Below, piece by piece: positions 9,393-21,610 of a DNA stretch of 64,000 bases. The notes beneath the pieces are model-generated. The model worked only from the letters and a program-made list of their open reading frames with translations, did not search any database and was not told the DNA's origin. The DNA comes from a virus. Position numbers and translations under genes: made by a program. Location of the stretch: the IMG/VR virus record IMGVR_UViG_3300032116_000037, positions 1-64,000 of that record. One strand, 5' to 3'. The number at the start of each line of letters is the position of its first letter. The stretch's first letter is position 1.

Positions 9393-10079
9393 ATGCAAAA
9401 TAATAATTTTATTGTAGATAAAGTTCATGGTGAATTGTATAATAATATTTTATACTTTACCTTGGAAAAACGCGAAAGTTTAGAATATTTGTGGAATTTT
9501 CGTATCGAAAAGTCAAAGTTTAACAATAATTTTGATAAATTTGCTAAGTTTTGCCGCGAAGTTACTAAAAAGACGGCCACGGAACTTAATAAGTACGTGG
9601 AAAATAAGGAAAAACTGCTCCCTATATTAGAATATAGTGGAAATAGCCCGCAAAAGTTAGAAATTCAGGCCAAACTTAATAAAATTATGCAAAATTTTGC
9701 TGAAATGGGCTTATTCCCATTAAAGCGTGTAGTTAAGTATAATCATATCCCGCTCAAGAAAAATATTACTGGATATGCTATCTTAGCTACTTCTACTTAT
9801 AGTAATCAGTCTCATAATATTAATGCTGAGTATGAGCATCCGCGTGTTGCTATTGTAGAAGAAGAAAATAAAGAAGATAAAAAAGTTAGCTGGGAAATGG
9901 CCCCTCCCAAAAGAAAAGCCCCACGTAAGCGGCAATATACTAAAAGACGTGGGCCTTCTACTAATAATAAATATTTCACTATTGATACCCGCAGCTTAAT
10001 TAAAGAAGATGAAGCTATGGGTATTGCTTATAATGCAGAAAAGAATAATAGTATTAGTAAGTTGCTAGAGGATTTATAA
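9393..10079 (+). CDS. Basic hypothetical protein, distantly like the 24214 protein (228 aa)
   Basis: This is the first gene of the plus-strand series. Residues 60-80 (TKKTATELNKYVENKEKLL) and 104-125 (KIMQNFAEMGLFPLKRVVKY) resemble TKLTTDLNLYIQNRENIQ and RVMVRYQKMGFNYATRTAIY of the protein at 24214, suggesting a shared helical domain. A very basic linker (PPKRKAPRKRQYTKRRG, about 171-187) could bind DNA or RNA. The C-terminus SKLLEDL also recurs in spirit in the 24214 protein (SLEDLL). Function unknown. Its stop overlaps the start of the first array gene (TAATG). Confidence 0.75.
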   Translation: MQNNNFIVDKVHGELYNNILYFTLEKRESLEYLWNFRIEKSKFNNNFDKFAKFCREVTKKTATELNKYVENKEKLLPILEYSGNSPQKLEIQAKLNKIMQNFAEMGLFPLKRVVKYNHIPLKKNITGYAILATSTYSNQSHNINAEYEHPRVAIVEEENKEDKKVSWEMAPPKRKAPRKRQYTKRRGPSTNNKYFTIDTRSLIKEDEAMGIAYNAEKNNSISKLLEDL

Positions 10080-10240
10080 TGGAATATAAAATTTCAGCCA
10101 GATTCTCAGATGCTAAAATGTTTATAATATTAACGTGCAGCTCAGATAAATTAGTAGATGTAATTAGATTGAAAAGAAATCTTATATGTCGTTGGCTTAT
10201 GAATAGTTTAATTATCAGAAAATATGAGAATTTTAATTAA
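10079..10240 (+). CDS. Array small protein 1 (53 aa)
   Basis: First member of the tandem array of tiny genes. ATG overlaps the upstream stop (TAATG). Reads MEYKISARFSDAKMFIILT, then a helix DKLVDVIRLKRN: the strand, strand, turn, helix, strand order seen through the array. No Shine-Dalgarno motif. Function unknown. Confidence 0.6.
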   Translation: MEYKISARFSDAKMFIILTCSSDKLVDVIRLKRNLICRWLMNSLIIRKYENFN

Positions 10241-10385
10241 ATACCGCAATTCCCGCATTTATTTATTTTTTAAAGATGAAAAAATGCGCAATATGGCATA
10301 TACAAAACGTGGCATGATAAATTATCCCCACCAAAGATTTTTCCTATTTACTCGCGGTGAATATGAGAGTATATGCACAAAATAA
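10224..10385 (+). CDS. Array small protein 2 (53 aa)
   Basis: Starts 17 bp inside the previous gene in another frame. MRILIKYRNSRIYLFFKDEK gives two strands and an acidic turn; the end is QRFFLFTRGEYESICTK. Function unknown. Confidence 0.55.
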   Translation: MRILIKYRNSRIYLFFKDEKMRNMAYTKRGMINYPHQRFFLFTRGEYESICTK

Positions 10386-10522
10386 ATGTTAATTTTGACT
10401 CATGGGCGAATAGTTTTTGTCTGAAAACAGAAGATAAAATTATAATGGGTATGATAGTATTTAAAAGAATCATAATAATGCATCCACATATATCTAGTAT
10501 TTATCTTTTAAAAACAATTTAA
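10373..10522 (+). CDS. Array small protein 3 (49 aa)
   Basis: Overlaps the previous gene by 13 bp. Starts MHKINVNFDSWANSFCLKTE, continues with a hydrophobic basic strand (MIVFKRIIIMHPHI). Function unknown. Confidence 0.55.
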   Translation: MHKINVNFDSWANSFCLKTEDKIIMGMIVFKRIIIMHPHISSIYLLKTI

Positions 10523-10523
10523 A

Positions 10524-10676
10524 ATGGATAAAATTCAAGTATATTATTCAGTAAGCCTAAAATGGTTTATATTGAAATATAGTTGCAAAAAAACCGCAGA
10601 TGCTTTAAAAGATAGAATATATCTAATACATATAGATACTCCAGTCTTATCAATGCGCCGCATACTTAAAGACTAA
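10524..10676 (+). CDS. Array small protein 4 (50 aa)
   Basis: One base after the previous stop. MDKIQVYYSVSLKWFILKYS, then helix KKTADALKDRIYLIH. A typical array member: two strands then an ALKDRI helix. Function unknown. Confidence 0.55.
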   Translation: MDKIQVYYSVSLKWFILKYSCKKTADALKDRIYLIHIDTPVLSMRRILKD

Positions 10677-10679
10677 ATT

Positions 10680-10829
10680 ATGATTACAATAGTTCAAGAC
10701 GAATCTACTCTAACGGCAATAAGCAAATATAAATATATATCTTTAATCATGGGGATGAAGTTATTAATATTATCTAATACTGATAAGCTTATTGTTAAGG
10801 GCGGCGCTATTTTAGTTGAAATTGAATAA
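10680..10829 (+). CDS. Array small protein 5 (49 aa)
   Basis: Three bases after the previous stop. MITIVQDESTLTAISKYKYI, then ISLIMGMKLLILSNTDKLIV. Function unknown. Confidence 0.55.
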   Translation: MITIVQDESTLTAISKYKYISLIMGMKLLILSNTDKLIVKGGAILVEIE

Positions 10830-10831
10830 AT

Positions 10832-10981
10832 ATGTCAAATAAAATCATTGTTAGATACACCAGCAACCTTGATTTAATATCAATAATTTTCCCAGAAGAT
10901 AAGATTTTTATGGTCGAAATATTACTAGAAAAACGGGCCGCAATTTCTCCTTTAGAAATAGCATTTTTAATTCAGACTTAA
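10832..10981 (+). CDS. Array small protein 6 (49 aa)
   Basis: Starts two bases after the previous stop. Contains FPEDKIFMVEILLEKRAAIS; the FPEDK turn recurs as FPTDENKISV at 15846 and YPEDKNKIGV at 16058. Function unknown. Confidence 0.55.
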   Translation: MSNKIIVRYTSNLDLISIIFPEDKIFMVEILLEKRAAISPLEIAFLIQT

Positions 10982-10982
10982 A

Positions 10983-11148
10983 ATAAATAGTCAAACTCAA
11001 ACCACACTTTACGCCCGCCGAATTAAAGTATGGCGTATGTATAAATATATACCTAGAAACAGTAGATTGGCATACTCTTGCAAGAAAAATTGCCACTATT
11101 GTAACATTTGATTATTATACTAGAATAATAACATGGCCAAGCCCATAA
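10983..11148 (+). pseudogene. Frameshifted array member (group D)
   Basis: Residues SQTQTTLYARRIKVWRMYKY in one frame and IYLETVDWHTLARKIATIVT in the next line up with SQTQNSLIASSIRVLCYGKY and LYLESLDWLKIDNKIEYIRK of the intact gene at 13101. A one-base change between the halves breaks the frame and there is no ATG at the expected start, so this copy appears dead. Confidence 0.6.
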
Positions 11149-11276
11149 GAGTAAAATACTATCAATATACTTATCATTCTGATAGATATTTATATTTATC
11201 AATAAAAGATAAAGATATGTGGTTAAAAATAAGGGCTAAAATAATTTGTATAAAGAATATCAGGTTTATAATATAA
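11133..11276 (+). CDS. Array small protein 7, group D (47 aa)
   Basis: MAKPIRVKYYQYTYHSDRYL, then YLSIKDKDMWLKIRAKIICI. The IRV-strand, RYLYL strand and WLKI-xx-KI helix match the 13101 protein (IRVLCYGKYLYLES and WLKIDNKIEYI), so the two are paralogues. Starts inside the preceding pseudogene. Function unknown. Confidence 0.6.
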   Translation: MAKPIRVKYYQYTYHSDRYLYLSIKDKDMWLKIRAKIICIKNIRFII

Positions 11277-11315
11277 GTAAAAGGGACGCGGCCCGTAGAT
11301 TTTTGACTGAATAAG

Positions 11316-11480
11316 ATGATTAATACTATATATATAGATATAAACCCTCCAGGTATAGATTTACATATAAACAGTGAATCATTATTAAATACTATAACTC
11401 ATAAAATACGTTGTCTTGGATATATGGAAACTCCTCTTTATGTAAGATATCATGATAAACACTGTATATATAGACAATAA
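11316..11480 (+). CDS. Array small protein 8, group C (54 aa)
   Basis: MINTIYIDINPPGIDLHINS followed by LLNTITHKIRCLGYMETP. Its direct neighbour at 11452 begins MINTVYIDNKGTGIDIACTD, a clear tandem duplicate. A 40-bp AT/GC-mixed spacer precedes it. Function unknown. Confidence 0.65.
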   Translation: MINTIYIDINPPGIDLHINSESLLNTITHKIRCLGYMETPLYVRYHDKHCIYRQ

Positions 11481-11670
11481 AGGTACAGGGATAGATATAG
11501 CCTGTACTGATAATACACTGGAGTTTGCAAACAATATAAGGAAGAAATACCGTTTAATCCGAAATGGCCCGGTTATATCATTTAAAAATACACTCTATAT
11601 TTTTTATTTTACTGAAGAAATGATGGAAAAAGCGCGGGAAAATGGCACTATTTATGAAAAACACGCGTAA
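11452..11670 (+). CDS. Array small protein 9, group C (72 aa)
   Basis: Tandem paralogue of the 11316 gene; starts 29 bp inside it in another frame. After MINTVYIDNKGTGIDIACTD come the helix LEFANNIRKKYRLI and a C-terminal extension EEMMEKARENGTIYEKHA. Function unknown. Confidence 0.65.
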   Translation: MINTVYIDNKGTGIDIACTDNTLEFANNIRKKYRLIRNGPVISFKNTLYIFYFTEEMMEKARENGTIYEKHA

Positions 11671-11873
11671 ATGAAGGGGATTTCGCGTTGATGAAGTTGG
11701 GCCCATAAATGATTATTATATACTTATCCCTATCCCCTCCCCCTCCCATAGGTTATTCTCCCCTTTATATATTCTATATATTGTATGGTATAATAGAGTA
11801 TTATTCCCCTAGTAATATAATGATATATTCCCTGTGTTTTTGGGGGTAAAATGGGGAAATAGGTATTAGCTTT
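11671..11873 (+). promoter_or_regulatory. Array-internal spacer with promoter-like bases
   Basis: The largest gap inside the array. It holds pyrimidine tracts (CCCCTATCCCCTCCCCCTCCC near 11737 is one of them in part), TATAAT at 11790-11795 within an inverted repeat (ATAAT-AGAGT-ATTAT), and GTTTTTGGGGG. It could be an internal promoter for the following genes. No gene is seen. Confidence 0.4.
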
Positions 11874-12044
11874 ATGCAATATTTTAAAGTCGTTTTTCTC
11901 TATGGTATGGGCTATATTTTATACTGCCCGCACGACCAATATGCTATAAATTTACAGACAAAAAATTATTACGTATTTCCTAATCTATATTTAATTATAT
12001 CAAAAGAGATATATAATAACACGATGAACAAAAGAATTATTTAA
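11874..12044 (+). CDS. Array small protein 10 (56 aa)
   Basis: MQYFKVVFLYGMGYILYCPH, then DQYAINLQTKNYYVFPNLYL. Strand-rich, ending in a helix. First gene after the internal spacer. Function unknown. Confidence 0.55.
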   Translation: MQYFKVVFLYGMGYILYCPHDQYAINLQTKNYYVFPNLYLIISKEIYNNTMNKRII

Positions 12045-12065
12045 CCAATTACCTATAATTCATTT

Positions 12066-12239
12066 ATGAAAATTAAAGTAAAAATAATCTACTTACTAAA
12101 TCTTCGTTTTTGGACGCTTGATATCTACGGGCCGAGAAATTTTATAAAAAAAATGGAAGTAAAAAGGGGTTTGATGACTTCTTTTAATAAAACTTGTAGT
12201 ATGTTAAATATTAATTTATTTTATTATAGAGATCAATGA
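12066..12239 (+). CDS. Array small protein 11, group A (57 aa)
   Basis: Group A is marked by a K-I-x-V first strand, a second strand ending in a GP turn, then a helix. Here MKIKVKIIYLL, FWTLDIYGPRNFIKKMEVKR. Compare 13730 (IHYIGPRDSIRQI), 14061 (LFIDGPKNFIKMI) and 15130 (LFLDGPRELMNIL). Function unknown. Confidence 0.65.
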   Translation: MKIKVKIIYLLNLRFWTLDIYGPRNFIKKMEVKRGLMTSFNKTCSMLNINLFYYRDQ

Positions 12240-12397
12240 AAATAAAAGTTGAATTTGACTTACATGCAAATTGTTTTTGGCTCTCACCAAATAATAAATA
12301 TGTATTGTCTATTATTATAGCTAAAAGATATTTGATATGCAGCTGGAATACTCATGGGATTTTCCTTATGAATAAAAATTATGAATGCCAGATATAA
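12236..12397 (+). CDS. Array small protein 12 (53 aa)
   Basis: ATGA overlap with the previous gene. MKIKVEFDLHANCFWLSPNN keeps the KIKV start; then YVLSIIIAKRYLICSW. Function unknown. Confidence 0.6.
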   Translation: MKIKVEFDLHANCFWLSPNNKYVLSIIIAKRYLICSWNTHGIFLMNKNYECQI

Positions 12398-12530
12398 TAG
12401 AAAAATAAAAGCTTTTATAATAACTTTTAATAAAAAGACCGGGGCGTATGCGAAAAACCTCTATCAGAAAAGGTTATTTCTTTATAAAACAGGAGCTGGT
12501 TTGAAAATATACGCAGAATATAAAAAATAA
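12381..12530 (+). CDS. Array small protein 13 (49 aa)
   Basis: Overlaps the previous gene by 17 bp. Basic: MNARYNRKIKAFIITFNKKT, then AYAKNLYQKRLFLYKTGAGL. Function unknown. Confidence 0.55.
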   Translation: MNARYNRKIKAFIITFNKKTGAYAKNLYQKRLFLYKTGAGLKIYAEYKK

Positions 12531-12533
12531 ATT

Positions 12534-12698
12534 ATGAGAACAAGTAAAATATATGTAAGTTGGGATTATAATGTAAAATGTTATAGATTCGATGACCGTG
12601 ATGGAGTATATATGTGGTTAATAGGGATGGTCAGGATTAAAAGAACATTCATTACCAAACACCATATCGGCCGCCACTCTTATCTTCATTTTCGCTAA
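12534..12698 (+). CDS. Array small protein 14 (54 aa)
   Basis: MRTSKIYVSWDYNVKCYRFD, then MWLIGMVRIKRTF and a histidine-rich end KHHIGRHSYLHFR. Its stop overlaps the next ATG (TAATG). Function unknown. Confidence 0.55.
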   Translation: MRTSKIYVSWDYNVKCYRFDDRDGVYMWLIGMVRIKRTFITKHHIGRHSYLHFR

Positions 12699-12853
12699 TG
12701 AATACAATACGGTTTAAATATTATAAAGCGCTCCGCTTATTCTTTTTTTACTTTCAAAACAAAAAACATGCAGAAAGTTTTAAAATAAAAAGTTATTTAA
12801 TTGGTCGTTTTAAGATACACTCTCAATATGAAAATGATTTGGAATCTATATAA
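12698..12853 (+). CDS. Array small protein 15 (51 aa)
   Basis: MNTIRFKYYKALRLFFFYFQ followed by helix KKHAESFKIKSYLIGRFKI. Start overlaps the upstream stop. Function unknown. Confidence 0.55.
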   Translation: MNTIRFKYYKALRLFFFYFQNKKHAESFKIKSYLIGRFKIHSQYENDLESI

Positions 12854-12961: not shown

Positions 12962-13114
12962 ATGTTTTCAATAATTAATAATAAGTCAAGTTTAATCCTT
13001 ATAACAATAGATAATTTAAAATATTATTATATAGTTTTAAATAAACTGACTGCAATGGTGGATAATTCTATTGTTCTAGAATATAGAAGCCCTAAGATAT
13101 ATGGCCGCAAGTAG
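12962..13114 (+). CDS. Array small protein 16 (50 aa)
   Basis: ATG 12962 is preferred to a TTG 14 codons earlier, because it starts right after the preceding stop and gives the usual length. MFSIINNKSSLILITIDNLK, then helix YYIVLNKLTAMVD and strand SIVLEYRS. A clear example of the strand-strand-helix-strand pattern. Confidence 0.6.
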   Translation: MFSIINNKSSLILITIDNLKYYYIVLNKLTAMVDNSIVLEYRSPKIYGRK

Positions 13115-13271
13115 TCAAACTCAAAACTCACTTATCGCTTCCAGTATTAGAGTGTTGTGTTATGGCAAGTATTTATATTTAGAATCATTAGATTGGCTTA
13201 AAATTGATAATAAAATTGAATATATCAGGAAAAACAGAGGCGTAAGTAAAATAATGGCGTGGCCAAAATGA
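13101..13271 (+). CDS. Array small protein 17, group D (56 aa)
   Basis: MAASSQTQNSLIASSIRVLC, then YGKYLYLESLDWLKIDNKIE. Intact paralogue of the pseudogene at 10983 and relative of 11133. The N-terminal SQTQ extension is missing from other members. Overlaps its neighbours by 14 bp and 4 bp. Confidence 0.65.
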   Translation: MAASSQTQNSLIASSIRVLCYGKYLYLESLDWLKIDNKIEYIRKNRGVSKIMAWPK

Positions 13272-13399
13272 TTAAAATAGACCGAGTTCATTATTATATA
13301 CGTCTTAATATAACAGATAATAGATATATGTGTGGTTTATTATTTGCCCGCCTATTTTTGATTAAATATACTAAAATTCTAACAGAATCATATGATTGA
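13268..13399 (+). CDS. Array small protein 18 (43 aa)
   Basis: Smallest intact member. ATGA overlap. MIKIDRVHYYIRLNITDNRY, then MCGLLFARLFLIKYTKIL. Start ATGATTAAA is shared with 13730, 15130 and 18102. Confidence 0.55.
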   Translation: MIKIDRVHYYIRLNITDNRYMCGLLFARLFLIKYTKILTESYD

Positions 13400-13580
13400 A
13401 CTAATAAATGTAAGAATTAGGCCGCGAAGAGGAATAGATTTATTGATATCTGTGGATTTTAAATGGTTTTATCAAAATATGAACAGTAAAATAATGTGTA
13501 TTGAATATACTAAAACTGTTAATATATATCCATATTGGCCAATGTTCTCCGCGAGGCCATGCTCTCCGCGAGTCAAATAA
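13392..13580 (+). CDS. Array small protein 19 (62 aa)
   Basis: MIELINVRIRPRRGIDLLIS, then VDFKWFYQNMNSKIMCIEYT and a GC-richer tail (FSARPCSPRVK) in which the bases GCGAGG and CTCTCCGCGAG resemble the window's GC repeat material. Function unknown. Confidence 0.55.
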   Translation: MIELINVRIRPRRGIDLLISVDFKWFYQNMNSKIMCIEYTKTVNIYPYWPMFSARPCSPRVK

Positions 13581-13592: not shown

Positions 13593-13733
13593 ATGTATAT
13601 AAAAACTGATGGTGGTATAGGTATAGATATATATCTTAGTGAAGGGTGGACGAAAGTTACAGAGATGTTTTGGAAAAAGAAAAAACTTATCTATAGATTT
13701 ACCTCAATATATTTTCATTCAAAAGATATATGA
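13593..13733 (+). CDS. Array small protein 20 (46 aa)
   Basis: MYIKTDGGIGIDIYLSEGWT, then KVTEMFWKKKKLIYRFTSIY. The GIGIDI strand recalls group C (PGIDLHI, TGIDIAC). Its stop overlaps the next ATG. Function unknown. Confidence 0.55.
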   Translation: MYIKTDGGIGIDIYLSEGWTKVTEMFWKKKKLIYRFTSIYFHSKDI

Positions 13734-13864
13734 TTAAAGTAAAATTAGTAGATAGGCCTTATTCATTTATGATTCACTATATAGGGCCGCGAGATTCAAT
13801 ACGTCAAATATATTATAAAATAAATAAAATCGGCTATTTTTCTAATTTATATTATAGTTGGTAG
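13730..13864 (+). CDS. Array small protein 21, group A (44 aa)
   Basis: ATGATTAAAGTAAAA start (MIKVKLVDRP), second strand FMIHYIGPRD, helix SIRQIYYKINKI, last strand NLYYSW. A compact group A member. Next gene (13874) is group B; the A-B pair is repeated at 14301/14449. Confidence 0.65.
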   Translation: MIKVKLVDRPYSFMIHYIGPRDSIRQIYYKINKIGYFSNLYYSW

Positions 13865-13873: not shown

Positions 13874-14068
13874 ATGTATATTTCCTTTCCATCATCTGGT
13901 TATTATGTTCCTATAAATACTGGACATCTTAAATATATCGAACATCCAATATATTTTAATCTTATTTGGACCGATTCTGGCATGTATTATAAAAATATAA
14001 TAGCCAAAAAAATAATACTTATTGCCCCAAGCCAAGATTGTAAGTTTATGAATTATTTTTATGAATAA
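13874..14068 (+). CDS. Array small protein 22, group B (64 aa)
   Basis: Group B is marked by S/T-GYY, a HP or YP-I strand and a helix ending in D-CK-I. MYISFPSSGYYVPINTGHLK, then YIEHPIYFNLIWTDSG. Compare 14449, 14791 and 14955. Function unknown. Confidence 0.65.
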   Translation: MYISFPSSGYYVPINTGHLKYIEHPIYFNLIWTDSGMYYKNIIAKKIILIAPSQDCKFMNYFYE

Positions 14069-14228
14069 TTTTCCACAAAAGTGTGTTAAAATAACAAAAT
14101 CTATTTTACATGGTAGCTCTACAGAGGTCTTATTCATCGATGGGCCTAAGAATTTTATAAAAATGATAAAAAGAAAAGAAAATATGATATCTGATCTCCT
14201 GACCGGTCTAGAGTATCATGTCTATTAA
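14061..14228 (+). CDS. Array small protein 23, group A (55 aa)
   Basis: KCVKITKSILHGSSTEVLFI followed by DGPKNFIKMIKRKENMISDL and LTGLEYHVY. Very close in layout to 14301 (KKENIISIRLSGLNYYV) and 15130 (KKEKIISQRYSGLDYYT), the best-conserved trio of the array. Confidence 0.7.
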   Translation: MNNFPQKCVKITKSILHGSSTEVLFIDGPKNFIKMIKRKENMISDLLTGLEYHVY

Positions 14229-14300: not shown

Positions 14301-14459
14301 ATGATTAGAATTACAAAAGAAAAGCTTTTAAGCTGGTCTAAAGAAATGTTATTTCTGGAAGCTTGTAATAAAAAAGGTGAGCAATTAGTAGAAATTATAG
14401 ATAAAAAAGAAAATATAATTTCTATAAGATTAAGTGGGTTAAATTATTATGTTAAATAA
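14301..14459 (+). CDS. Array small protein 24, group A (52 aa)
   Basis: MIRITKEKLLSWSKEMLFLE, then ACNKKGEQLVEIIDKKENII and SIRLSGLNYYVK. Shares the KKENIIS-xRLSGL-YY end with 14061 and 15130 but lacks the GP turn. Followed by a group B gene. Confidence 0.7.
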   Translation: MIRITKEKLLSWSKEMLFLEACNKKGEQLVEIIDKKENIISIRLSGLNYYVK

Positions 14460-14646
14460 AATGTTTATAAAATTTGGCTCCACATCTTATTATGTAACTC
14501 AAATAACTGGACCATATTATGTCTTAATAAGACATCCGATATGTATTTATTTTATAAAAGATGGTCAAACACACATGGCTAAACTTTTATTATTTTCAAA
14601 ATTAAGAGCGATTCTTAAAAAAGACTCTAAGATTAGAATCTATTAA
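14449..14646 (+). CDS. Array small protein 25, group B (65 aa)
   Basis: SYYVTQITGPYYVLIRHPIC, IYFIKDG, helix MAKLLLFSKLRAILKKDSKI. The SKLRAILKKDSKIRI end matches SKMREIMRSDCKIII of 14955. Overlaps the previous gene by 11 bp. Confidence 0.7.
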   Translation: MLNKMFIKFGSTSYYVTQITGPYYVLIRHPICIYFIKDGQTHMAKLLLFSKLRAILKKDSKIRIY

Positions 14647-14647: not shown

Positions 14648-14800
14648 ATGTATTATTTTAAAATAGATTTTTGTAAAATGTGGTGCGAATGTGCACGGCC
14701 AATATTTTATATTAAAAATTATCAAAGTAGATGCAACTTAGTTGCAAAATTATCTTATATAAAAATAAATATAGATATATGTGATATAAAATGCGAGTAA
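14648..14800 (+). CDS. Array small protein 26, cysteine-rich (50 aa)
   Basis: MYYFKIDFCKMWCECARPIF, then YQSRCNLVAKLSYIKINIDI. Six cysteines (FCKMWCEC, RCN, ICDIKCE) could bind metal or be chance. The helix LVAKLSYIKI fits the array pattern. Confidence 0.55.
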   Translation: MYYFKIDFCKMWCECARPIFYIKNYQSRCNLVAKLSYIKINIDICDIKCE

Positions 14801-14958
14801 TATATTATTCACCTGGCGTATATTATTTTGGTGATAGATGGCAATATCTACAATATCCACTAGTAATTAATACTAATGATTATTACAGTTATTATTTATT
14901 TGTAAAACTGACAAAAATTGCATATTTTAAATCTAAAATCTTAATAAAAACTTTATGA
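14791..14958 (+). CDS. Array small protein 27, group B (55 aa)
   Basis: MRVIYYSPGVYYFGDRWQYL, QYPLVINTNDYYSYYLFVKL, ending YFKSKILIKTL. The GVYY and YPLVI pieces place it with 13874 and 14955. Confidence 0.6.
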   Translation: MRVIYYSPGVYYFGDRWQYLQYPLVINTNDYYSYYLFVKLTKIAYFKSKILIKTL

Positions 14959-15137
14959 AAATATCTTTTATTCATACTGGATATTATCTTGCAATATTTA
15001 ATTGGGGCTATATAAATTATCCAATACGTATTTTAATTAGAAAAACTAATTCAGTTGATATATATGCTATATCAAAAATGAGAGAGATTATGCGTTCTGA
15101 CTGTAAAATTATTATTACTTATGAAGTAGATGATTAA
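14955..15137 (+). CDS. Array small protein 28, group B (60 aa)
   Basis: MKISFIHTGYYLAIFNWGYI, NYPIRILIRKTNSVDIYAIS, KMREIMRSDCKIIITYEVDD. ATGA overlap upstream and an 8-bp overlap with the group A gene that follows (B-A order). Confidence 0.65.
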   Translation: MKISFIHTGYYLAIFNWGYINYPIRILIRKTNSVDIYAISKMREIMRSDCKIIITYEVDD

Positions 15138-15294
15138 AGTAACAAGAAGACTAGTATATGGGTTTTCAAGCAATAGAGAAACTTTATTTCTTGATGGTCC
15201 CCGTGAGTTAATGAACATCTTACTAAAAAAAGAAAAGATAATATCTCAGCGCTATAGTGGATTGGATTATTATACTTATTATGGTAGTAAATAA
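15130..15294 (+). CDS. Array small protein 29, group A (54 aa)
   Basis: MIKVTRRLVYGFSSNRETLF, then LDGPRELMNILLKKEKIISQ and RYSGLDYYTYYGSK. The archetype of group A: two strands, DGPR turn, helix, YSGLDYY strand. Confidence 0.7.
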   Translation: MIKVTRRLVYGFSSNRETLFLDGPRELMNILLKKEKIISQRYSGLDYYTYYGSK

Positions 15295-15315: not shown

Positions 15316-15456
15316 ATGAAAATATTAATCAAAAATGAATATTATATAATACTTCTTTATTTTAAAAATGATGTTAATAGAAATCAGTGTAATATATGTT
15401 CAGTAAAATTTACAAACATATGTAATTTATGGCCTCCTAAAGTGTTTGCCTGTTAA
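15316..15456 (+). CDS. Array small protein 30 (46 aa)
   Basis: MKILIKNEYYIILLYFKNDV, then NRNQCNICSVKFTNICNLWP. Four cysteines in the second half (QCNIC, NICN, FAC). Function unknown. Confidence 0.5.
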   Translation: MKILIKNEYYIILLYFKNDVNRNQCNICSVKFTNICNLWPPKVFAC

Positions 15457-15623
15457 TGATGTATAAAATCACAGTGGATAATATACAGACTAAAAAAGTC
15501 TTAATATATTCAAGCAGCCAAAAAATAGCTTTTGATGTTTGCAAGGTTAAATTGAATTATATCTGGCCTTGGGCAAAGCGTTTATATTTAATTAGAGATT
15601 TGAAGTGTAATGAGTTGATTTAG
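15456..15623 (+). CDS. Array small protein 31 (55 aa)
   Basis: MMYKITVDNIQTKKVLIYSS, helix QKIAFDVCKVKLNYI, strand RLYLIRDLKC. The standard array pattern. Start overlaps the upstream stop by one base. Confidence 0.6.
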   Translation: MMYKITVDNIQTKKVLIYSSSQKIAFDVCKVKLNYIWPWAKRLYLIRDLKCNELI

Positions 15624-15654
15624 TAAAACCCAAATCTCACTTATCAGAACCACA

Positions 15655-15840
15655 ATGATACAATGTATAAGGATTAACACCAACCATTATAATTTTTTAT
15701 ATGGGAGAATGTGCGGTGTTTATTGTTATGATTATCAAATATACTATTTATTTAGAGATAAAATGCTAACTATTATACCTCATAAAGTCCATTATCATTA
15801 TGATGTTTATGATAGATTTTATCTTTTTTTAGTGAATTAA
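15655..15840 (+). CDS. Array small protein 32 (61 aa)
   Basis: MIQCIRINTNHYNFLYGRMC, then YYLFRDKMLTIIPHKVHYHY. Preceded by ACCCAAATCTCACTTATCAG, which resembles the SQTQ region DNA of 13101. Tyrosine- and histidine-rich. Function unknown. Confidence 0.5.
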   Translation: MIQCIRINTNHYNFLYGRMCGVYCYDYQIYYLFRDKMLTIIPHKVHYHYDVYDRFYLFLVN

Positions 15841-15845: not shown

Positions 15846-16058
15846 ATGTATATCAAAAATTCTTTATTTAAGATACATGGTAAAAGTCTTGTGGTTAAAA
15901 GACTATTTCCTACTGATGAAAATAAAATATCAGTTTTTATAGAATCTACCGCTTTCTTATTTGGGAATAGTAGAATTGTCGAAGCTGAAATGTTTAATAC
16001 TAAACTTCAATTAATGACTTGGTTAGGTATTGATTTATTTATAGCCGAGGATAAGTAA
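15846..16058 (+). CDS. Array small protein 33, group F (70 aa)
   Basis: MYIKNSLFKIHGKSLVVKRL, FPTDENKISVFIESTAFLFG, then a helical end. Tandem paralogue of 16058, with which it shares the MY-V/I-K start, the [FY]P-x-D-x-NKI-x-V motif and length 70. Confidence 0.65.
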   Translation: MYIKNSLFKIHGKSLVVKRLFPTDENKISVFIESTAFLFGNSRIVEAEMFNTKLQLMTWLGIDLFIAEDK

Positions 16059-16270
16059 TGTATGTTGTTAAGTTGTCTACTAAGACTAATAAATTTCTAG
16101 AACATATTTATCCAGAAGATAAAAATAAAATAGGTGTGTCTACTAATCATTTGAATAAGGTATCTATATATTTTGGCGAGAATGTATTAAAAATAGGTGA
16201 GTCATTAATTGCAAAAGACGCATTTATACTAAATTATCCATTTAGAATCTTCATCTATCTAAATAGATAG
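16058..16270 (+). CDS. Array small protein 34, group F (70 aa)
   Basis: MYVVKLSTKTNKFLEHIYPE, DKNKIGVSTNHLNKVSIYFG, ESLIAKDAFILNYPFRIFIY. Start overlaps the upstream stop (TAATG). Paralogue of the preceding gene. Confidence 0.65.
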   Translation: MYVVKLSTKTNKFLEHIYPEDKNKIGVSTNHLNKVSIYFGENVLKIGESLIAKDAFILNYPFRIFIYLNR

Positions 16271-16276: not shown

Positions 16277-16450
16277 ATGTTTAAAGAAAAACAAATATCT
16301 ATAAAGATAGATGGCAAAGATATAATTTTAAATATAACTCTATATTCTTATAGAGAATATTCCAGTTCGCCCGCCAATATTATACGCACAAAAATTATAG
16401 CGGTCCACCCATCAACTAAAATCTTTAGTTTTCTAATCTATTCTAATTGA
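16277..16450 (+). CDS. Array small protein 35 (57 aa)
   Basis: MFKEKQISIKIDGKDIILNI, then YSYREYSSSPANIIRTKIIA and a strand FSFLIYSN. Function unknown. Confidence 0.55.
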   Translation: MFKEKQISIKIDGKDIILNITLYSYREYSSSPANIIRTKIIAVHPSTKIFSFLIYSN

Positions 16451-16455: not shown

Positions 16456-16659
16456 ATGAATTTAATCAAAGATAAAATTACTGTCAGATTAATAAAACCT
16501 AATATGAGTAGTTGGACTGTTGGTTTATTTACTGACAATAGACAAACTCTTATAAAAAAAGTTCTTATGATTGTAGATTATGATGGCTATCAAGCACATA
16601 GTATTTTAGTTGAAACAAAAAAATGGCTTAATAATTATGAGAACTGGTCTAAATTATAG
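16456..16659 (+). CDS. Array small protein 36, group E (67 aa)
   Basis: ATG 16456 preferred over a TTG three codons earlier. KDKITVRLIKPNMSSWTVGL, FTDNRQTLIKKVLMIVDYDG, SILVETKKWLNNYENWSKL. Aligns with 17034 along its length (GLFTDN-x-LIKK / GIFSKN-x-LLDK, ILVETKKW / ILIESKNW). Confidence 0.65.
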   Translation: MNLIKDKITVRLIKPNMSSWTVGLFTDNRQTLIKKVLMIVDYDGYQAHSILVETKKWLNNYENWSKL

Positions 16660-16834
16660 TAATAATTTAAAGCTTACCGTTATAATTCGATATTATGAAA
16701 CACCAAAATTAACGTACATATGGATACATTCTAATACTTATTTTACAAATGACGCGTTAATACAAAAATTATACTACCTTGGAAGAGCAATGAGAAGGTT
16801 AAATTGTGCGCTGAAGCTGAAGGAGCTGAATTAA
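16637..16834 (+). CDS. Array small protein 37 (65 aa)
   Basis: ATG 16637 preferred over an upstream TTG. LKLTVIIRYYETPKLTYIWI, SNTYFTNDALIQKLYYLGRA, basic end MRRLNCALKLKELN. Overlaps neighbours by 23 bp and 1 bp. Confidence 0.55.
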   Translation: MRTGLNYSNNLKLTVIIRYYETPKLTYIWIHSNTYFTNDALIQKLYYLGRAMRRLNCALKLKELN

Positions 16835-17028
16835 TGATTGAAGTATTTTTCGATTACGGAATGATATGTTTCACTTATAAATCAGGTATTGGTTTACCTT
16901 TTTTGTGGCCAAAATTGCTAAAAATAGATATGAAATTTTTTAACCCTCATAGTAGAATTTTATTACGTAATGATCTTCAAGTTAGTTATAAGAATATTCA
17001 ACGATTTGGTCTATCAAATTTTAGGTGA
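16834..17028 (+). CDS. Array small protein 38 (64 aa)
   Basis: ATG 16834 overlaps the previous stop (TAATG); a TTG further up is rejected. MIEVFFDYGMICFTYKSGIG, then FLWPKLLKIDMKFFNPHSRI. Function unknown. Confidence 0.55.
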   Translation: MIEVFFDYGMICFTYKSGIGLPFLWPKLLKIDMKFFNPHSRILLRNDLQVSYKNIQRFGLSNFR

Positions 17029-17033: not shown

Positions 17034-17234
17034 ATGGATAAAATATTTGTTGAAATAAGGGAGATACCATATCTCAGGAATCTTCCTTCATCTATAGGCA
17101 TCTTTTCTAAAAATCATGAACCTTTATTAGATAAACTTATAAACGTTATTGGTATAGACGCATATCATAAGTGTAATATCTTAATCGAATCTAAAAACTG
17201 GTTCGAATATCAAAGACAATCATATGAAAATTAG
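17034..17234 (+). CDS. Array small protein 39, group E (66 aa)
   Basis: MDKIFVEIREIPYLRNLPSS, IGIFSKNHEPLLDKLINVIG, NILIESKNWFEYQRQSYEN. Paralogue of 16456. Two unrelated-looking members lie between the pair, so duplication involved a block or was followed by insertions. Confidence 0.65.
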   Translation: MDKIFVEIREIPYLRNLPSSIGIFSKNHEPLLDKLINVIGIDAYHKCNILIESKNWFEYQRQSYEN

Positions 17235-17436
17235 AGTGCAATCTACTCCATGCAGAATTAAGTTCTTATCACGTAAAAGAGGTAGATCTTTTCAAAAATG
17301 TAAAGTAGCATTTGTATTTTATTTTCCTCTTTTAGATAAGCCTTTTTTTAAAAGCGTTTTTAAACACTTTCCTAAAAAATTGCGTATACTCGATACTTCT
17401 CGACTTGATATAACTGAAACTTATAAATATTTATAA
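17224..17436 (+). CDS. Array small protein 40 (70 aa)
   Basis: MKIRVQSTPCRIKFLSRKRG, KVAFVFYFPLLDKPFFKSVF, end LRILDTSRLDITETYKYL. Very basic first half. Overlaps the previous gene by 11 bp. Confidence 0.55.
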   Translation: MKIRVQSTPCRIKFLSRKRGRSFQKCKVAFVFYFPLLDKPFFKSVFKHFPKKLRILDTSRLDITETYKYL

Positions 17437-17438: not shown

Positions 17439-17576
17439 ATGATAAAAGTTGTGTTTATGCCAAAATACAGGATTTTTGATTTAATTTGCAGTGACCAAGC
17501 ACTTTTTAATATGTGCGTGAATAAAGCAGGCTTAATACATTTTGATCTTGAGCGTCTCTTCTTTGTATATATCTAA
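17439..17576 (+). CDS. Array small protein 41 (45 aa)
   Basis: MIKVVFMPKYRIFDLICSDQ, ALFNMCVNKAGLIHFDLERL, FFVYI. Complete strand-strand-helix-strand in 45 residues. Its stop shares a base with the next ATG. Confidence 0.55.
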   Translation: MIKVVFMPKYRIFDLICSDQALFNMCVNKAGLIHFDLERLFFVYI

Positions 17577-17725
17577 TGAATATAAAAATAACATTTAACA
17601 AAATAGATAAAGCATTAAATATATTAGTCAAAAGAAACCATAAATTATATAAATCTCTTATTAATAAGAAGCGCACCATCTTTAAAAAAGGGTTATGTAT
17701 TCTTATTCATTATAAAGAAATTTAA
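17576..17725 (+). CDS. Array small protein 42 (49 aa)
   Basis: MNIKITFNKIDKALNILVKR, then KLYKSLINKKRTIFKKGLCI. Strongly basic. Function unknown. Confidence 0.55.
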   Translation: MNIKITFNKIDKALNILVKRNHKLYKSLINKKRTIFKKGLCILIHYKEI

Positions 17726-17746: not shown

Positions 17747-17905
17747 ATGTTTAAAATTACAGCATATTGCTTTGAAAACGAATATTTTATATGTATTATA
17801 TCTTCACAACCTTGTCCTTTATTAGAAAAGTTAATATTAATTAATCAATACATAGGTAATATTTATATCTATGATGGAACGTGGCTAGAAGAATGTCACA
17901 TATAA
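17747..17905 (+). CDS. Array small protein 43 (52 aa)
   Basis: MFKITAYCFENEYFICIISS, QPCPLLEKLILINQYIGNIY, IYDGTWLEECHI. Good fit to the pattern, with helix LLEKLILINQYI. Confidence 0.6.
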   Translation: MFKITAYCFENEYFICIISSQPCPLLEKLILINQYIGNIYIYDGTWLEECHI

Positions 17906-17919
17906 TTCTGGGTAAAATA

Positions 17920-18105
17920 ATGACCTCAAAGTGGTATATCTTATTTAAAACAAAAGTCGAAATCAATTTTTTTATCCATATTTACATAGCTAGGAAAAAA
18001 CATTTTCTAGCTTTAGAGAAAAAACTGAATATAATTAATGTAGGCAGAGATGATATTTATCACTGTGTCTATGGAAAATTCTGGCTTGTAGATACACGAC
18101 AATGA
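17920..18105 (+). CDS. Array small protein 44 (61 aa)
   Basis: ATG 17920 preferred over an upstream GTG/ATG that would overlap the previous gene. MTSKWYILFKTKVEINFFIH, ARKKHFLALEKKLNIINVGR, DDIYHCVYGKFWLVDTRQ. Fits the pattern with a long helix. Confidence 0.6.
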   Translation: MTSKWYILFKTKVEINFFIHIYIARKKHFLALEKKLNIINVGRDDIYHCVYGKFWLVDTRQ

Positions 18106-18263
18106 TTAAAGTAATACCTTCTACTGATCTTGATTATACTATAATACTTATAGATGAAGAATTTCTATCATATTATTTAGTATTAGAGAAAATGAATAAA
18201 ATAAGTTATCTTTATCCTGGTGTTTGTATAATGACTGAATCTCTATATTTAGATAGCCTTTAG
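18102..18263 (+). CDS. Array small protein 45 (53 aa)
   Basis: ATGATTAAAGTAATA start (MIKVIPSTDLDYTIILIDEE), helix YYLVLEKMNKISY, then VCIMTESLYLDSL. Same gene start sequence as 13730 and 15130. Confidence 0.6.
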   Translation: MIKVIPSTDLDYTIILIDEEFLSYYLVLEKMNKISYLYPGVCIMTESLYLDSL

Positions 18264-18337: not shown

Positions 18338-18499
18338 ATGATAATCCATACATGTAGTATCCTCGACAATCGTATTTTTAATAGAAAATATCTAATTTTC
18401 TGTAAAGATAGAAAATTTTATGAAGCTTTATCTGGAAAATGTTATCTTATTATTAAAAAATATTCGTTCAAAAATTTCGCAATAATTTTACAATCTTAA
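18338..18499 (+). CDS. Array small protein 46 (53 aa)
   Basis: MIIHTCSILDNRIFNRKYLI, FCKDRKFYEALSGKCYLIIK, KYSFKNFAIILQS. Followed by 60 bp that read CYIGDKIRIIDLYYR to a stop, perhaps the end of a lost member. Confidence 0.55.
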   Translation: MIIHTCSILDNRIFNRKYLIFCKDRKFYEALSGKCYLIIKKYSFKNFAIILQS

Positions 18500-18561: not shown

Positions 18562-18729
18562 ATGTATATTACATATAGACAAGAATATCTTAGAAGACGT
18601 ATAGAAATATATGTTAGTGTAGATTTTATTACAAAAAAAAGTTTTCATATAAATGAATATAATATGTTATGGGAAAAATATCACACTATTCTACAATCGC
18701 CGGACAATGCGACATTAATCATAAGATGA
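18562..18729 (+). CDS. Array small protein 47 (55 aa)
   Basis: MYITYRQEYLRRRIEIYVSV, DFITKKSFHINEYNMLWEKY, HTILQSPDNATLIIR. ATGA overlap with the next gene. Confidence 0.55.
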   Translation: MYITYRQEYLRRRIEIYVSVDFITKKSFHINEYNMLWEKYHTILQSPDNATLIIR

Positions 18730-18956
18730 AAGTATATTTATATTCTTTTAATGAAATATTTAAGCATCCTACTGGTTTTTTTATTTATACTGGCTCATAT
18801 TTTAAAATATGCGTAGCAAAAATACAAACTATAGATAAGAAATCAATAGTTTTACAATCCGCAAATAAAGATAATCATATATGCTGTAAGTGTTGCGGGG
18901 TTATGTACTGGAGTCTTTTCTGCGATGCGAAAGATTTTAATTCAACAAAGTATTAA
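18726..18956 (+). CDS. Array small protein 48 with CxxC-like cysteines (76 aa)
   Basis: ATG 18726 (MKVYLYSFNEIF) is chosen because of the ATGA overlap; an ATG at 18669 would sit within the previous gene. GFFIYTGSYFKICVAKIQTI, then HICCKCCGVMYWSLFCDAKD, which contains ICCKCC and could bind zinc. Confidence 0.55.
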   Translation: MKVYLYSFNEIFKHPTGFFIYTGSYFKICVAKIQTIDKKSIVLQSANKDNHICCKCCGVMYWSLFCDAKDFNSTKY

Positions 18957-19128
18957 TGAGACTGGATTTTGTTTAGTTACTAATGATAATATTATATATC
19001 AAAAACTTAATTTAATTAAAAAAACTACAGGTATTGAAATCGATAAATATTATTGTAATAAACCATTGAAATGCGTTGGAAATAATAAATATAGCACTCC
19101 AATTTTGGTATATATTTATGATTTTTAG
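18925..19128 (+). CDS. Array small protein 49 (67 aa)
   Basis: MRKILIQQSINETGFCLVTN, DNIIYQKLNLIKKTTGIEID, ending STPILVYIYDF. Overlaps the previous gene by 32 bp. Clear helix IIYQKLNLIKKT. Confidence 0.6.
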   Translation: MRKILIQQSINETGFCLVTNDNIIYQKLNLIKKTTGIEIDKYYCNKPLKCVGNNKYSTPILVYIYDF

Positions 19129-19369
19129 ACCAACTTTTAAAGTCAGAAATAGAAGATATTCATTTTATATTGTAAAATTTGATGCAGATAAATTAATAGA
19201 TATTTTCAACTGCGACGGTGATTTATTTTACAGATTAAATCTGATAAATATCAATAAACGCTATTTTGTGACTGGCAAGTATTATTTTTTAGGTAGAATA
19301 TGTTTTCACAATTATTGTAAAAAAGCAATATATTGGTGCGGATTTAATGAATATAAATTTAGAAAATAA
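19118..19369 (+). CDS. Array small protein 50 (83 aa)
   Basis: Largest member. ATG 19118 preferred over a TTG inside the previous gene. RRYSFYIVKFDADKLIDIFN, RLNLININKRYFVTGKYYFL, then a cysteine/tyrosine-rich tail. Function unknown. Confidence 0.6.
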   Translation: MIFRPTFKVRNRRYSFYIVKFDADKLIDIFNCDGDLFYRLNLININKRYFVTGKYYFLGRICFHNYCKKAIYWCGFNEYKFRK

Positions 19370-19691
19370 ATTAATTAAAAAAATAGAATGTATACATCCA
19401 AAATACGTTGAATTTTTTAAGACGGTGAATACACTGGCTAAATCTTACCGTAAATTAATTATCGGTGAGACGTACTTAGTATTTTTTATGTTTTTAGTAA
19501 TTATATTTCTAATATGTGTAATGATTTCTATTATAGATAATCCAGAACAACCTATAGTTTCTGTTTTTATGGCAATATGTAGTATGGGTGCGCAGTTCGG
19601 TGTTAGTTGTGAAAAGCTTCTTGATTCTCATGATAGATACGAATTCTATAATAATCAAAGAATGCGACCTTTTAAAGATTTTTTACGATGA
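19347..19691 (+). CDS. Two-span membrane protein within the array (114 aa)
   Basis: Unlike its neighbours it has an amphipathic N-terminal helix (ENKLIKKIECIHPKYVEFFK) and two hydrophobic segments, TYLVFFMFLVIIFLICVMIS (about 42-61) and PIVSVFMAICSMGAQFGVSC (about 69-88), with a basic C-terminus. A small inner-membrane protein, possibly holin-like or a membrane anchor. Overlaps both neighbours. Confidence 0.65.
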   Translation: MNINLENKLIKKIECIHPKYVEFFKTVNTLAKSYRKLIIGETYLVFFMFLVIIFLICVMISIIDNPEQPIVSVFMAICSMGAQFGVSCEKLLDSHDRYEFYNNQRMRPFKDFLR

Positions 19692-19858
19692 TATTTAGAT
19701 ATAAAATAGAAAACAGTTTTGTTCCTGGCTGTCCATTTATAATAATTTGCGATATTAATACATATAATATTTTGCATCGTAAAGTACATCTAATAACTAA
19801 AACTATATTAAACCAATATAGTATTATTGATTATGCTAAAAAATCTGTGTGGATGTAA
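19688..19858 (+). CDS. Array small protein 51 (56 aa)
   Basis: MIFRYKIENSFVPGCPFIII, CDINTYNILHRKVHLITKTI, LNQYSIIDYAKKSVWM. Same MIFR start as 19118 (MIFRPTFKV). Overlaps both neighbours. Confidence 0.6.
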   Translation: MIFRYKIENSFVPGCPFIIICDINTYNILHRKVHLITKTILNQYSIIDYAKKSVWM

Positions 19859-20348
19859 AACTTGTGTATGCACTACTGGCGGCTATCAAGTTCATATTAC
19901 AATTGAAAATCTTAACGCAAAAGTATCAGCTTTTATTAATGAAAATGGCGGAGAGATAATTAAATTAAAAAATTATACAAATGACAGTTTTTATGAAGAA
20001 AATATAACTTCAAAGAACTATAATAAGTATGAAGATGCTTATGAAGAAATGTATAAGTGGGATGAAATTATAAAAAGCTTGGGTAGTTCTGTTACTAGAC
20101 TTAAAATTGAGTCACACCCAAAAGAAGCATCTCAGTCACTCTATTACGAATATCATTATAAAATCTCAAGACAAGAAACTGAGCAGTATAAAAAACTTGG
20201 ATGTTTTATTTCTGAAAATAGTAAAGGGACTATATTTGCTACTAAGAGAAGTAAAGAACCAGTGAATCCTATTAAGCCTGAACATAGATTAGAAAAAGTT
20301 TGTATTGATTCAAATCCTGGTTTAGATAAAAGAATGATGTCTAAATAG
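19833..20348 (+). CDS. Hypothetical protein with cysteine-rich N-terminus (171 aa)
   Basis: ATG 19833 (MLKNLCGCKTCVCTTGGYQV) gives four clustered cysteines at residues 6-14 (CGCKTCVC), a possible metal site. The rest is an alpha/beta protein (HITIENLNAKVSAFINENGG; KYEDAYEEMYKWDEIIKSLG) with a basic C-terminal tail (ATKRSKEPVNPIKPEHRLEK). No family recognised. It lies between array genes and tilS. Confidence 0.65.
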   Translation: MLKNLCGCKTCVCTTGGYQVHITIENLNAKVSAFINENGGEIIKLKNYTNDSFYEENITSKNYNKYEDAYEEMYKWDEIIKSLGSSVTRLKIESHPKEASQSLYYEYHYKISRQETEQYKKLGCFISENSKGTIFATKRSKEPVNPIKPEHRLEKVCIDSNPGLDKRMMSK

Positions 20349-20356
20349 ACTTATTT

Positions 20357-20545
20357 ATGAAAAAATCTTTTTTAATAAAAAAAGGCATAGCAAATTATTA
20401 TTATATATGTATTGAATGTTATAATACTCAATATATAACATTAAGACAAAAACTAAATAAAATTAGTCCTTGTGTATGCAGAGGGCGTTATTGTTTTGAG
20501 AATAATTTTAGTTTAAGTCTTATAGCGCTATATCAAAAATTATGA
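20357..20545 (+). CDS. Array small protein 52 (62 aa)
   Basis: MKKSFLIKKGIANYYYICIE, CYNTQYITLRQKLNKISPCV, CRGRYCFENN. Array pattern with helix ITLRQKLNKI. Its stop overlaps the tilS-like start by 4 bp. Confidence 0.6.
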   Translation: MKKSFLIKKGIANYYYICIECYNTQYITLRQKLNKISPCVCRGRYCFENNFSLSLIALYQKL

Positions 20546-21084
20546 AAATTACAAAACTTCCTAAAACATGCCATCTTGCCTTAAGTGGCGGAATTGATTC
20601 TATGTTTGGTTTGGTTTTTTTAATGAGCGGGCCGCCTAGAATTGAATCATGTATCCATATTAATCATGGAACTGAAAGAGCTAATGAATATGAAGATTTT
20701 TGCTCTAATATTTGTAATTATTATGGTATCAGACTTGATGTACATCACTATGATAAAAATAAACCAATGACTGAGGATGCTTGGCATTCTTTTAGATATG
20801 ATATTTTCTCTTCCTATCCTAAAAAAGTAATTGTTTGCCATCATAAAGATGATAATCTTGAAAACAAATTACTGTTTGGTAAGATTATGAAGCCCGAAAA
20901 TGGTAATATTGTAAGACCTTTTTTGCAAGTTACTAAAGCAGAAATTAGAAATAGAATGGCTGGTTATGCGTATATTGAAGACCCGACCAATCTTGATGAA
21001 AATTTTACTAAAAGAAATAAAGTAAGACGAATTATTCAAGAGTTAAAAGATATTGGTTGTGCATTAGATAGTTTACTACAATGA
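20542..21084 (+). CDS. tilS: Minimal tRNA(Ile)-lysidine synthetase, TilS N-type PP-loop protein (180 aa)
   Basis: The PP-loop SGGIDS (residues 15-20), HHKDDNLEN (100-108), EDPTNLDENF (146-155) and RNKVRR (158-163) are the signature motifs of TilS, in the right order and spacing. TilS adenylates C34 of tRNA-Ile(CAU) with ATP and attaches lysine, giving lysidine, so that the tRNA reads AUA and is charged with Ile instead of Met. Cellular TilS is usually 300-430 residues; here only the catalytic N-terminal domain is present. A CAT-anticodon tRNA with an Ile2-like anticodon arm lies 0.6 kb downstream. TtcA-like thiolation enzymes are the alternative but lack the DPTN-RN motif and carry other cysteines. 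Confidence 0.85.
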   Translation: MKITKLPKTCHLALSGGIDSMFGLVFLMSGPPRIESCIHINHGTERANEYEDFCSNICNYYGIRLDVHHYDKNKPMTEDAWHSFRYDIFSSYPKKVIVCHHKDDNLENKLLFGKIMKPENGNIVRPFLQVTKAEIRNRMAGYAYIEDPTNLDENFTKRNKVRRIIQELKDIGCALDSLLQ

Positions 21085-21263
21085 TAACAGTTCTTCCACA
21101 AAAAAATTCAAGTTTTTGTATGTTATTACAAATTAATTTTACACAATCTGAAGAAATAACAGATGAAGATAGATTAAAAATATTTTTGAAAAAAAGTATT
21201 AATGAGAAAATTGCCAATATAGAAACAATAAACTGGCCTTTACCAATAGTTGTACAATCATAG
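21081..21263 (+). CDS. Array small protein 53 (60 aa)
   Basis: MITVLPQKNSSFCMLLQINF, TQSEEITDEDRLKIFLKKSI, NWPLPIVVQS. ATGA overlap with tilS. Array pattern with helix DRLKIFLKKSI. Confidence 0.6.
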   Translation: MITVLPQKNSSFCMLLQINFTQSEEITDEDRLKIFLKKSINEKIANIETINWPLPIVVQS

Positions 21264-21274
21264 ATGGAGATTAA

Positions 21275-21469
21275 ATGTATACTGCACAAATTCTTTTGTT
21301 AATTTTGTTTATTTGTCGCTCGTTTTTAACTATTGTTAATACTGCAAAAAATAACAGGAAATCAAATCTTTCAATGGGAGAGGATTTATTCGCATCAGTG
21401 ATTGCTATAGGTGTTATTTATGCTTTATTGTATTATGCTGGTTCATTTAGTTTGATTTTTAAAAATTAA
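21275..21469 (+). CDS. Small two-span membrane protein (64 aa)
   Basis: MYTAQILLLILFICRSFLTI (1-20) and LFASVIAIGVIYALLYYAGS (about 38-57) are hydrophobic, separated by a polar loop NTAKNNRKSNLSMGED. GGAG stands seven bases upstream of the ATG, unlike array genes. Function unknown. Confidence 0.6.
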   Translation: MYTAQILLLILFICRSFLTIVNTAKNNRKSNLSMGEDLFASVIAIGVIYALLYYAGSFSLIFKN

Positions 21470-21610
21470 ATGATTGAGATTAGATTACCATACATAAGCG
21501 CTCGCAATATTGATTTATATTGTAAAGACTCAAGTGTATTTAATATTATATTTGATAAAATTGATCTAATTAATAAATATTATGTGACCTCAAAAATTCA
21601 AGTTTATTGA
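21470..21610 (+). CDS. Array small protein 54, last member (46 aa)
   Basis: MIEIRLPYISARNIDLYCKD, SSVFNIIFDKIDLINKYYVT, KIQVY. Full strand-strand-helix-strand pattern. Followed by a 64-bp spacer and tRNA genes. Confidence 0.6.
   Translation: MIEIRLPYISARNIDLYCKDSSVFNIIFDKIDLINKYYVTSKIQVY

Follow-up and report, generated by a model that had tools for sequence, protein, structure and literature searches.

Bacillus subtilis phage SPO1 carries a host-takeover module of 26 early genes, which are small and reprogram the host (PMC6873191 and PMC10531801). The array described here, a polycistronic block for about 55 small basic proteins that form a single phage-specific family, resembles that module in also being a cluster of many small co-directed genes; it lies on the plus strand at 10079–21610 of a 64,000-nt window (the whole stretch of DNA that was analyzed), which is the first half of the 128,386-base IMG/VR virus record IMGVR_UViG_3300032116_000037. 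The genes of the SPO1 module are not known to be homologous to one another and have ribosome-binding sites; relative to SPO1, the array differs in being a single family with Shine-Dalgarno (SD) motifs at background level. The archaeal viruses SIRV2 and SIFV have terminal early clusters of small, poorly conserved anti-CRISPR and anti-defence genes (AcrID1, AcrIIIB1), and one genome can hold several paralogues of an Acr (PMC11065993). These clusters are likewise runs of small, poorly conserved genes, but they are mostly monocistronic, share a promoter element and have few paralogues per family, whereas the array is one co-directional block of 55 paralogues without a shared promoter element. In the poxvirus gene accordion, tandem copies supply variants in an arms race; the array has the tandem copy expansion in common with it, but accordion copies are recent, near-identical and of larger genes, whereas the array genes, of about 50 codons, are ancient and have diverged far from one another. 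Small non-essential proteins that act against host immunity are encoded by sets of phage accessory and counter-defence genes (PMC12373910), but these comprise unrelated families, whereas the array is one family without a convincing match to PADLOC models. No earlier description of such an array was met in the open-access literature, outside which one may exist.

Open frames, homology and growth of the array

The plus strand of 10079–21610 holds 59 open reading frames (ORFs) of at least 40 aa that begin with ATG, and these cover 93.6% of the DNA; the minus strand has nine ORFs and 12% coverage, and 200 dinucleotide-preserving shuffles gave a mean of 4.9 ORFs and 6% coverage (maximum 16.7%). Members are mostly 43–83 residues long and number about 55 co-directional genes. 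When the genes are called as a chain, 46 of the 58 junctions fall in the range -32 to +12 nt, most often at -4 (nine times) and -1 (five times); gaps of more than 20 nt occur at 12 of the 58, and several of these coincide with relics or decayed genes. The coordinates, orientation, sizes and junctions given in an earlier note on this DNA hold in this recount. Its array of about 53 genes is real as a tiling, but five genes in the interval (11709, 19347, 19833, 20542 and 21275, denoted here, like the others, by their first coordinate) lie outside the family. A scan for small genes in 10-kb stretches of the rest of the phage and of two cousin genomes, G003 and G005, passed one other region, in G005, with 25 genes, SD motifs at 92% of them and no clear paralogy; among the three genomes scanned, the array alone combines small-gene density, paralogy and lack of SD motifs.

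The family comprises 54 of the 59 ATG frames and a hidden frame at 10987–11150, about 55 in all. Pairwise protein comparison gave 53 pairs scoring at least 40 (10.6 in shuffled sets) and seven scoring at least 60 (none in shuffled sets). Leave-one-out profiles recognized 34 of 54 members at p ≤ 0.05, where 2.7 are expected, and a family hidden Markov model found 53 array ORFs at E < 0.03, compared with E 0.19 for the best ORF of the genome outside the array. All 54 members of the family alignment carry, within a helix, the motif hydrophobic-x-x-[K/R]-x-x-x-[I/L/V/M]; the central column has 51 K and 3 R, and the -3 position is hydrophobic and the +4 position I, L, V or M in 54/54, while the best K column of shuffled sets has a mean of 0.33 and a maximum of 0.54. 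When members were held out, 49 of 55 aligned through this column, all with K or R, versus about 31% of shuffled sequences. The column lies at a median of 32.5 residues from the start (interquartile range 30–39), the genes starting just before strand 1. Outside the motif the sequences have diverged, and profile-aligned members are about 10–35% identical. The K-x-x-I helix pattern first proposed is in fact this motif. By the profiles and the motif, the array genes all descend from one ancestral protein of about 50 residues and form a single superfamily, which is tighter than the expansion of "one or a few" folds that the earlier note had envisaged; the proposal that one small α/β fold expanded in tandem and then diverged far is supported by the profiles, the motif, the AlphaFold2 model of 12236, distance decay and the frameshifted copy. 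That the genes are real and of common descent is very nearly certain.

The features of the interval and its borders are as follows.

9393–10079, +, 228-aa ORFan before the array, with a stop codon that runs into the ATG of the first member (TAATG); no Pfam or PHROGs match
10079–10240, +, array member; AGGA upstream of the start, among the few with an SD-like motif
10224–10385, +, array member
10373–10522, +, array member, paralogue of 12236
10524–10676, +, array member
10680–10829, +, array member, weak (family profile E 0.24)
10832–10981, +, array member
10987–11150, +, hidden member; begins ATA, without ATG, GTG or TTG near the 5′ end; protein begins IVKLKPHFTPAELKYGVCINIYLETVDWHTLARKIATIVTF
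11133–11276, +, array member
11316–11480, +, array member, group C
11452–11670, +, array member, group C
11709–11849, +, proline-rich 46-aa frame, non-member
11874–12044, +, array member, weak
12066–12239, +, array member, distant group A
12236–12397, +, array member, best family-profile match; AlphaFold2 model with strands 3–8 and 13–18, helix 21–34
12381–12530, +, array member
12534–12698, +, array member
12698–12853, +, array member
12962–13114, +, array member; frame open from TTG at 12920
13101–13271, +, array member, frameshifted paralogue of 10987–11150 with new N-terminus
13268–13399, +, array member
13392–13580, +, array member
13593–13733, +, array member
13730–13864, +, array member
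13874–14068, +, array member, group B, first B-A block
14061–14228, +, array member, group A, first B-A block
14301–14459, +, array member, group A
14461–14646, +, array member, group B
14648–14800, +, array member, weak
14791–14958, +, array member, group B
14955–15137, +, array member, group B, second B-A block
15130–15294, +, array member, group A, second B-A block
15316–15456, +, array member
15456–15623, +, array member
15620–15658, +, relic, 12 codons of 10987-type gene (LVKPKSHLSEPQ, then stop)
15655–15840, +, array member
15846–16058, +, array member, group F
16058–16270, +, array member, group F
16277–16450, +, array member
16456–16659, +, array member, group E
16637–16834, +, array member
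16834–17028, +, array member, weak; GGAG upstream
17034–17234, +, array member, group E
17224–17436, +, array member, weak
17439–17576, +, array member
17576–17725, +, array member
17747–17905, +, array member
17893–18105, +, array member
18102–18263, +, array member
18338–18499, +, array member
18562–18729, +, array member
18726–18956, +, array member, Cys-rich tail
18925–19128, +, array member
19118–19369, +, array member
19347–19691, +, 114-aa membrane-type protein, non-member; weak PADLOC profile match (CARF-TM)
19688–19858, +, array member
19833–20348, +, 171-aa protein, non-member; weak AbiEi PADLOC profile match, E 1e-7
20357–20545, +, array member
20542–21084, +, TilS-like PP-loop ATPase, non-member; Pfam PF01171, about 34% identical to phage PA5oct TilS
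21081–21263, +, array member, weak
21275–21469, +, small membrane-type protein, non-member; SD present
21470–21610, +, last array member; AlphaFold2 model, helix 21–34
21675–21827, +, tRNA(CAT), possibly tRNA-Ile2, and tRNA-Arg(TCT), closing the array

Smith-Waterman comparison bears out the paralogy that had been noticed by eye for group B (z 6–10), for the group C pair 11316 and 11452 (z 8.7) and for the group E pair 16456 and 17034 (z 13.9). Group A, whose alignment is too diverged for a pattern scan, is strong for 14061, 14301 and 15130 (z 12–20) and weaker for 12066 (z 5.4), and 13730, which had been placed with them, is not among the listed pairs. The group D pair of 11133 and 13101 stands at z 5.3, but 13101 has a better partner, which had been missed, in the hidden frame 10987–11150 (z 9.4); group F (15846 and 16058) is weak, at z 3.2.

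The array grew by tandem birth and death, that is, by local and block duplication, frameshift and decay, since similarity between members drops with their distance in the array (permutation p 0.003), a two-gene B-A block is present in duplicate (13874–14228 and 14955–15294, both with an 8-nt overlap), and frameshifted copies and relics are found; block duplication at the best lag overall is not significant (p 0.14). A 25-nt DNA repeat is present at 10988, 13112 and 15621 (0.01 expected). A reading of it as a regulatory element common to several genes, at a constant distance from their starts, was rejected, as the repeat is where a duplicated gene begins to encode strand 1; 10987 reads it in frame and 13101 out of frame, and at 15621 it survives in a relic. 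The 10987–11150 frame encodes a family member that carries the motif, and either uses a non-standard start or is a gene that has lost its start. The DNA of 13101–13271 differs from it by small indels, so that the start of 13101 is a new reading frame, its first part being read in the other frame from a new ATG (the pair with protein z 9.4); at 15620–15658 nothing is left but a 12-codon relic of such a gene. In the closest pairs, frame-blind DNA alignments are largely in frame, and most pairs vary more at third than at second codon positions; the frames are constrained at the protein level. As to the arms-race role suggested in the earlier note, within-array ratios of nonsynonymous to synonymous divergence (Ka/Ks) of about 0.3–1.0, with Ks near-saturated, are compatible with weak or diversifying constraint and are no proof of it.

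Structure prediction, which the earlier note had put forward as a check, was made for 12236 and 21470. AlphaFold2, given an alignment of 20 family members, models 12236 as strand-strand-helix (strands at residues 3–8 and 13–18, helix at 21–34), with a predicted local distance difference test score (pLDDT) of about 92 over residues 1–30; for 21470 it gives the helix at 21–34 alone, at moderate confidence and below that of 12236, and this helix is common to both. The predicted scaffold is strand-strand-helix(-strand), the helix always bearing a lysine or arginine at its fixed position. Among PDB sequences, a profile search with the family gave no match.

Phage setting and translation

The source is a tailed phage known from environmental DNA alone. 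Its genes include those for a PolA-type DNA polymerase, a primase, a terminase/helicase-like protein and tail fibre proteins, and also for RNR, NAMPT, PRPP synthetase, RuvB- and RecA-like proteins and ligases. The array is continuous with the rest of the phage. An assembly join may lie at the left boundary, because the left 9 kb (1–9300), with minus-strand genes, deviates in base composition (GC 0.39–0.55) and codon use (AUA is 7% of Ile codons there versus 39–54% elsewhere); a recently acquired segment is also possible. An 87-bp tandem repeat lies at 1–201 of the window and a poly-T stretch at 9000–9040.

Searches for relatives of the array were negative throughout: its DNA had no match among phage records, no relative of the family was found by pooled tblastn of 50,697 phage genomes or in the cousins G003 and G005, and a genome-contig pattern scan found none. 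The 58 frames searched against Pfam, PHROGs and NCBIfam gave scattered single matches (best E 0.0009, 0.0018 and 0.018, respectively). Pattern scans of IMG/VR with 31899 (596 aa), 9393, the phosphoesterase 22814, 19833, 20542 and 15130 found no relatives; those with RNR and NAMPT did find relatives. No family member has a convincing match to a PADLOC model; the strongest matches (AbiEi, spbK, CARF_TM) trace to the non-members 19833 and 19347, and two further matches, each to a single frame, are weak (PDC-S63, E 0.0006; PDC-M43A, E 0.0096).

RNR is common to two other contigs (100% and 93%). Its large subunit has 547 aa in the window (55581–57224) and 1237 aa in the 93% relative (L008:4874–8587), where the extra length is an in-frame insert, possibly an intein. 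Two longer records, G003 (160 kb) and G005 (145 kb), are distantly related to the phage; their core is largely collinear with its own, at a protein identity of about 30–45%. NAMPT (window 25872–27335) is 74–77% identical to its G003 and G005 counterparts, other shared proteins being mostly in the 25–50% range, which may reflect slow evolution or recent exchange. The glycosyltransferase at L005:16782–18407 is 75% identical to that of Synechococcus phage ACG-2014f over 362 residues and is fused to a C-terminal part weakly similar to a methyltransferase. A 4.7-kb interval without listed frames at 104–108.7 kb of record G000 was set aside, as it is one giant minus-strand ORF cut by a slice boundary.

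Ahead of the start codon, SD-like triplets are present in 12 of 59 array genes (20%; background, 18%) versus 53 of 80 downstream genes (66%; background, 28%). Because they are frequent downstream and in the G005 small-gene region but at background level in the array, the host uses SD initiation and the array does not. Termination-reinitiation requires that genes overlap or lie very close together, at about -8 to +10 nt (PMC10666635), a range that takes in 31 of the 58 junctions. The lack of SD motifs together with the short junctions points to serial termination-reinitiation, and the array genes are probably coupled in translation in this way. A promoter scan of the array gave nothing above chance, and its genes have no promoter element in common. 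AUA makes up 7.1% of codons in the array versus 3.2% downstream; since the array is AUA-rich and lies next to the TilS-like gene and tRNA(CAT), its expression may be set apart by composition, and 20542 with tRNA(CAT) suggests phage-supplied AUA decoding, if tRNA(CAT) is tRNA-Ile2.

Candidate functions of the array proteins

The array proteins are mostly basic (median pI 9.45 versus 6.96 for downstream proteins; median net charge +4), and some have no net charge or a negative one, down to -5. Searches of Pfam, PHROGs, NCBIfam, PDB and PADLOC named no function from family profile, structure or neighbour. The reading favored here, tentatively, is that the array may be a repertoire of small host-takeover or anti-defence binders on one scaffold. 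Ribosomes would enter upstream or at the few SD-bearing genes and then translate serially by termination-reinitiation, so that one transcript would yield a cocktail of many different small proteins. The block would be expressed early, ahead of the replication genes, as is suggested by its location upstream of the genes for metabolism and replication and by the adjoining tRNA genes. Each protein would keep the scaffold and helix lysine while its surface diverged to fit a target of its own, whether in the host, in a defence system or in a competitor, or, alternatively, to follow successive variants of one target, and gene birth and death would renew the set. A more specific and more doubtful form of the idea is an antibody-like repertoire, in which more than 50 scaffold variants from one mRNA would have one target each and new ones would arise by duplication and frameshift. 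The toxin/antitoxin-like role that had also been suggested finds no footing: there are no alternating pairs, one family runs throughout and no toxin/antitoxin profile matches.

Several observations count against the repertoire. The sample is one genome from a metagenome assembly, and no orthologous array was found in the collections searched, so that selection between phages is not measurable. The held-out test of the helix lysine is partly alignment-driven, as shuffles that align at the column show K or R in 86%. The C-terminal strand of 12236 is modelled with low confidence (pLDDT in the 50s), so that in a comparison with beta-grasp or ubiquitin-like folds the β-β-helix part is confident and this strand is not, and Foldseek found no significant structural match (best E 1.6 in the PDB and 0.42 among viral structures). 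Some junctions, of +21 to +151 nt, are too distant for reinitiation without a start signal of their own. Overlapping gene pairs are, moreover, enriched for subunits of heteromeric complexes (PMC10666635). This enrichment favors an assembly in which the paralogues pack into a variable polymer, shell or filament, helped by co-translation, and the hydrophobic strands of the shared scaffold could make the proteins self-associate; more than 50 subunits at about 20% identity with no conserved surface beyond one helix would be extreme, however, and block birth and death alters stoichiometry, so this explanation seems improbable.

Somewhat less improbable, while still unlikely, are regulators that bind phage or host RNA or DNA, the helix lysine contacting phosphate. 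The high pI, the median net charge of +4 and the fixed K/R would suit such a role, and SPO1 Gp49, a small host-takeover protein, binds RNA (PMC10531801), but some members have a net charge of only -5 to 0, and no nucleic-acid-binding family in Pfam, PHROGs or NCBIfam is matched. Selfish or neutral tandem expansion, with duplication and decay outrunning selection and many members dispensable, would explain the relics, frameshifted copies, weak members and a Ka/Ks of up to about 1 for one pair; it is given as little weight as the assembly, because 94% of the DNA is kept open on one strand and the K/R and flanking hydrophobics are retained in all members. Phage genomes also quickly lose useless DNA. 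A polyprotein or giant repeat protein broken up by frameshifts would likewise leave tandem homologous units of similar length with frame changes between them, but starts just before strand 1, with the K column at a steady distance from them, and the classic -4/-1 junction overlaps make this very hard to credit. Chance open frames, which the earlier note named as what would overturn its proposal and which AT-rich DNA (about 73% AT here) would favor, are ruled out for all practical purposes, coverage, homology and motif being far above those of shuffles.

Small phage genes are mostly unexplained orphans; here, at least in this case, dozens of apparent orphans are one family masked by divergence, and one genome retains successive stages of gene birth, namely duplication, a frameshift that brings a new start, and a relic. 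If the array is indeed a repertoire of binders, it could serve as a test bed for long SD-free reinitiation runs, and it would offer, in little space, many mini-proteins that target the host or its defences and are all built on one scaffold.

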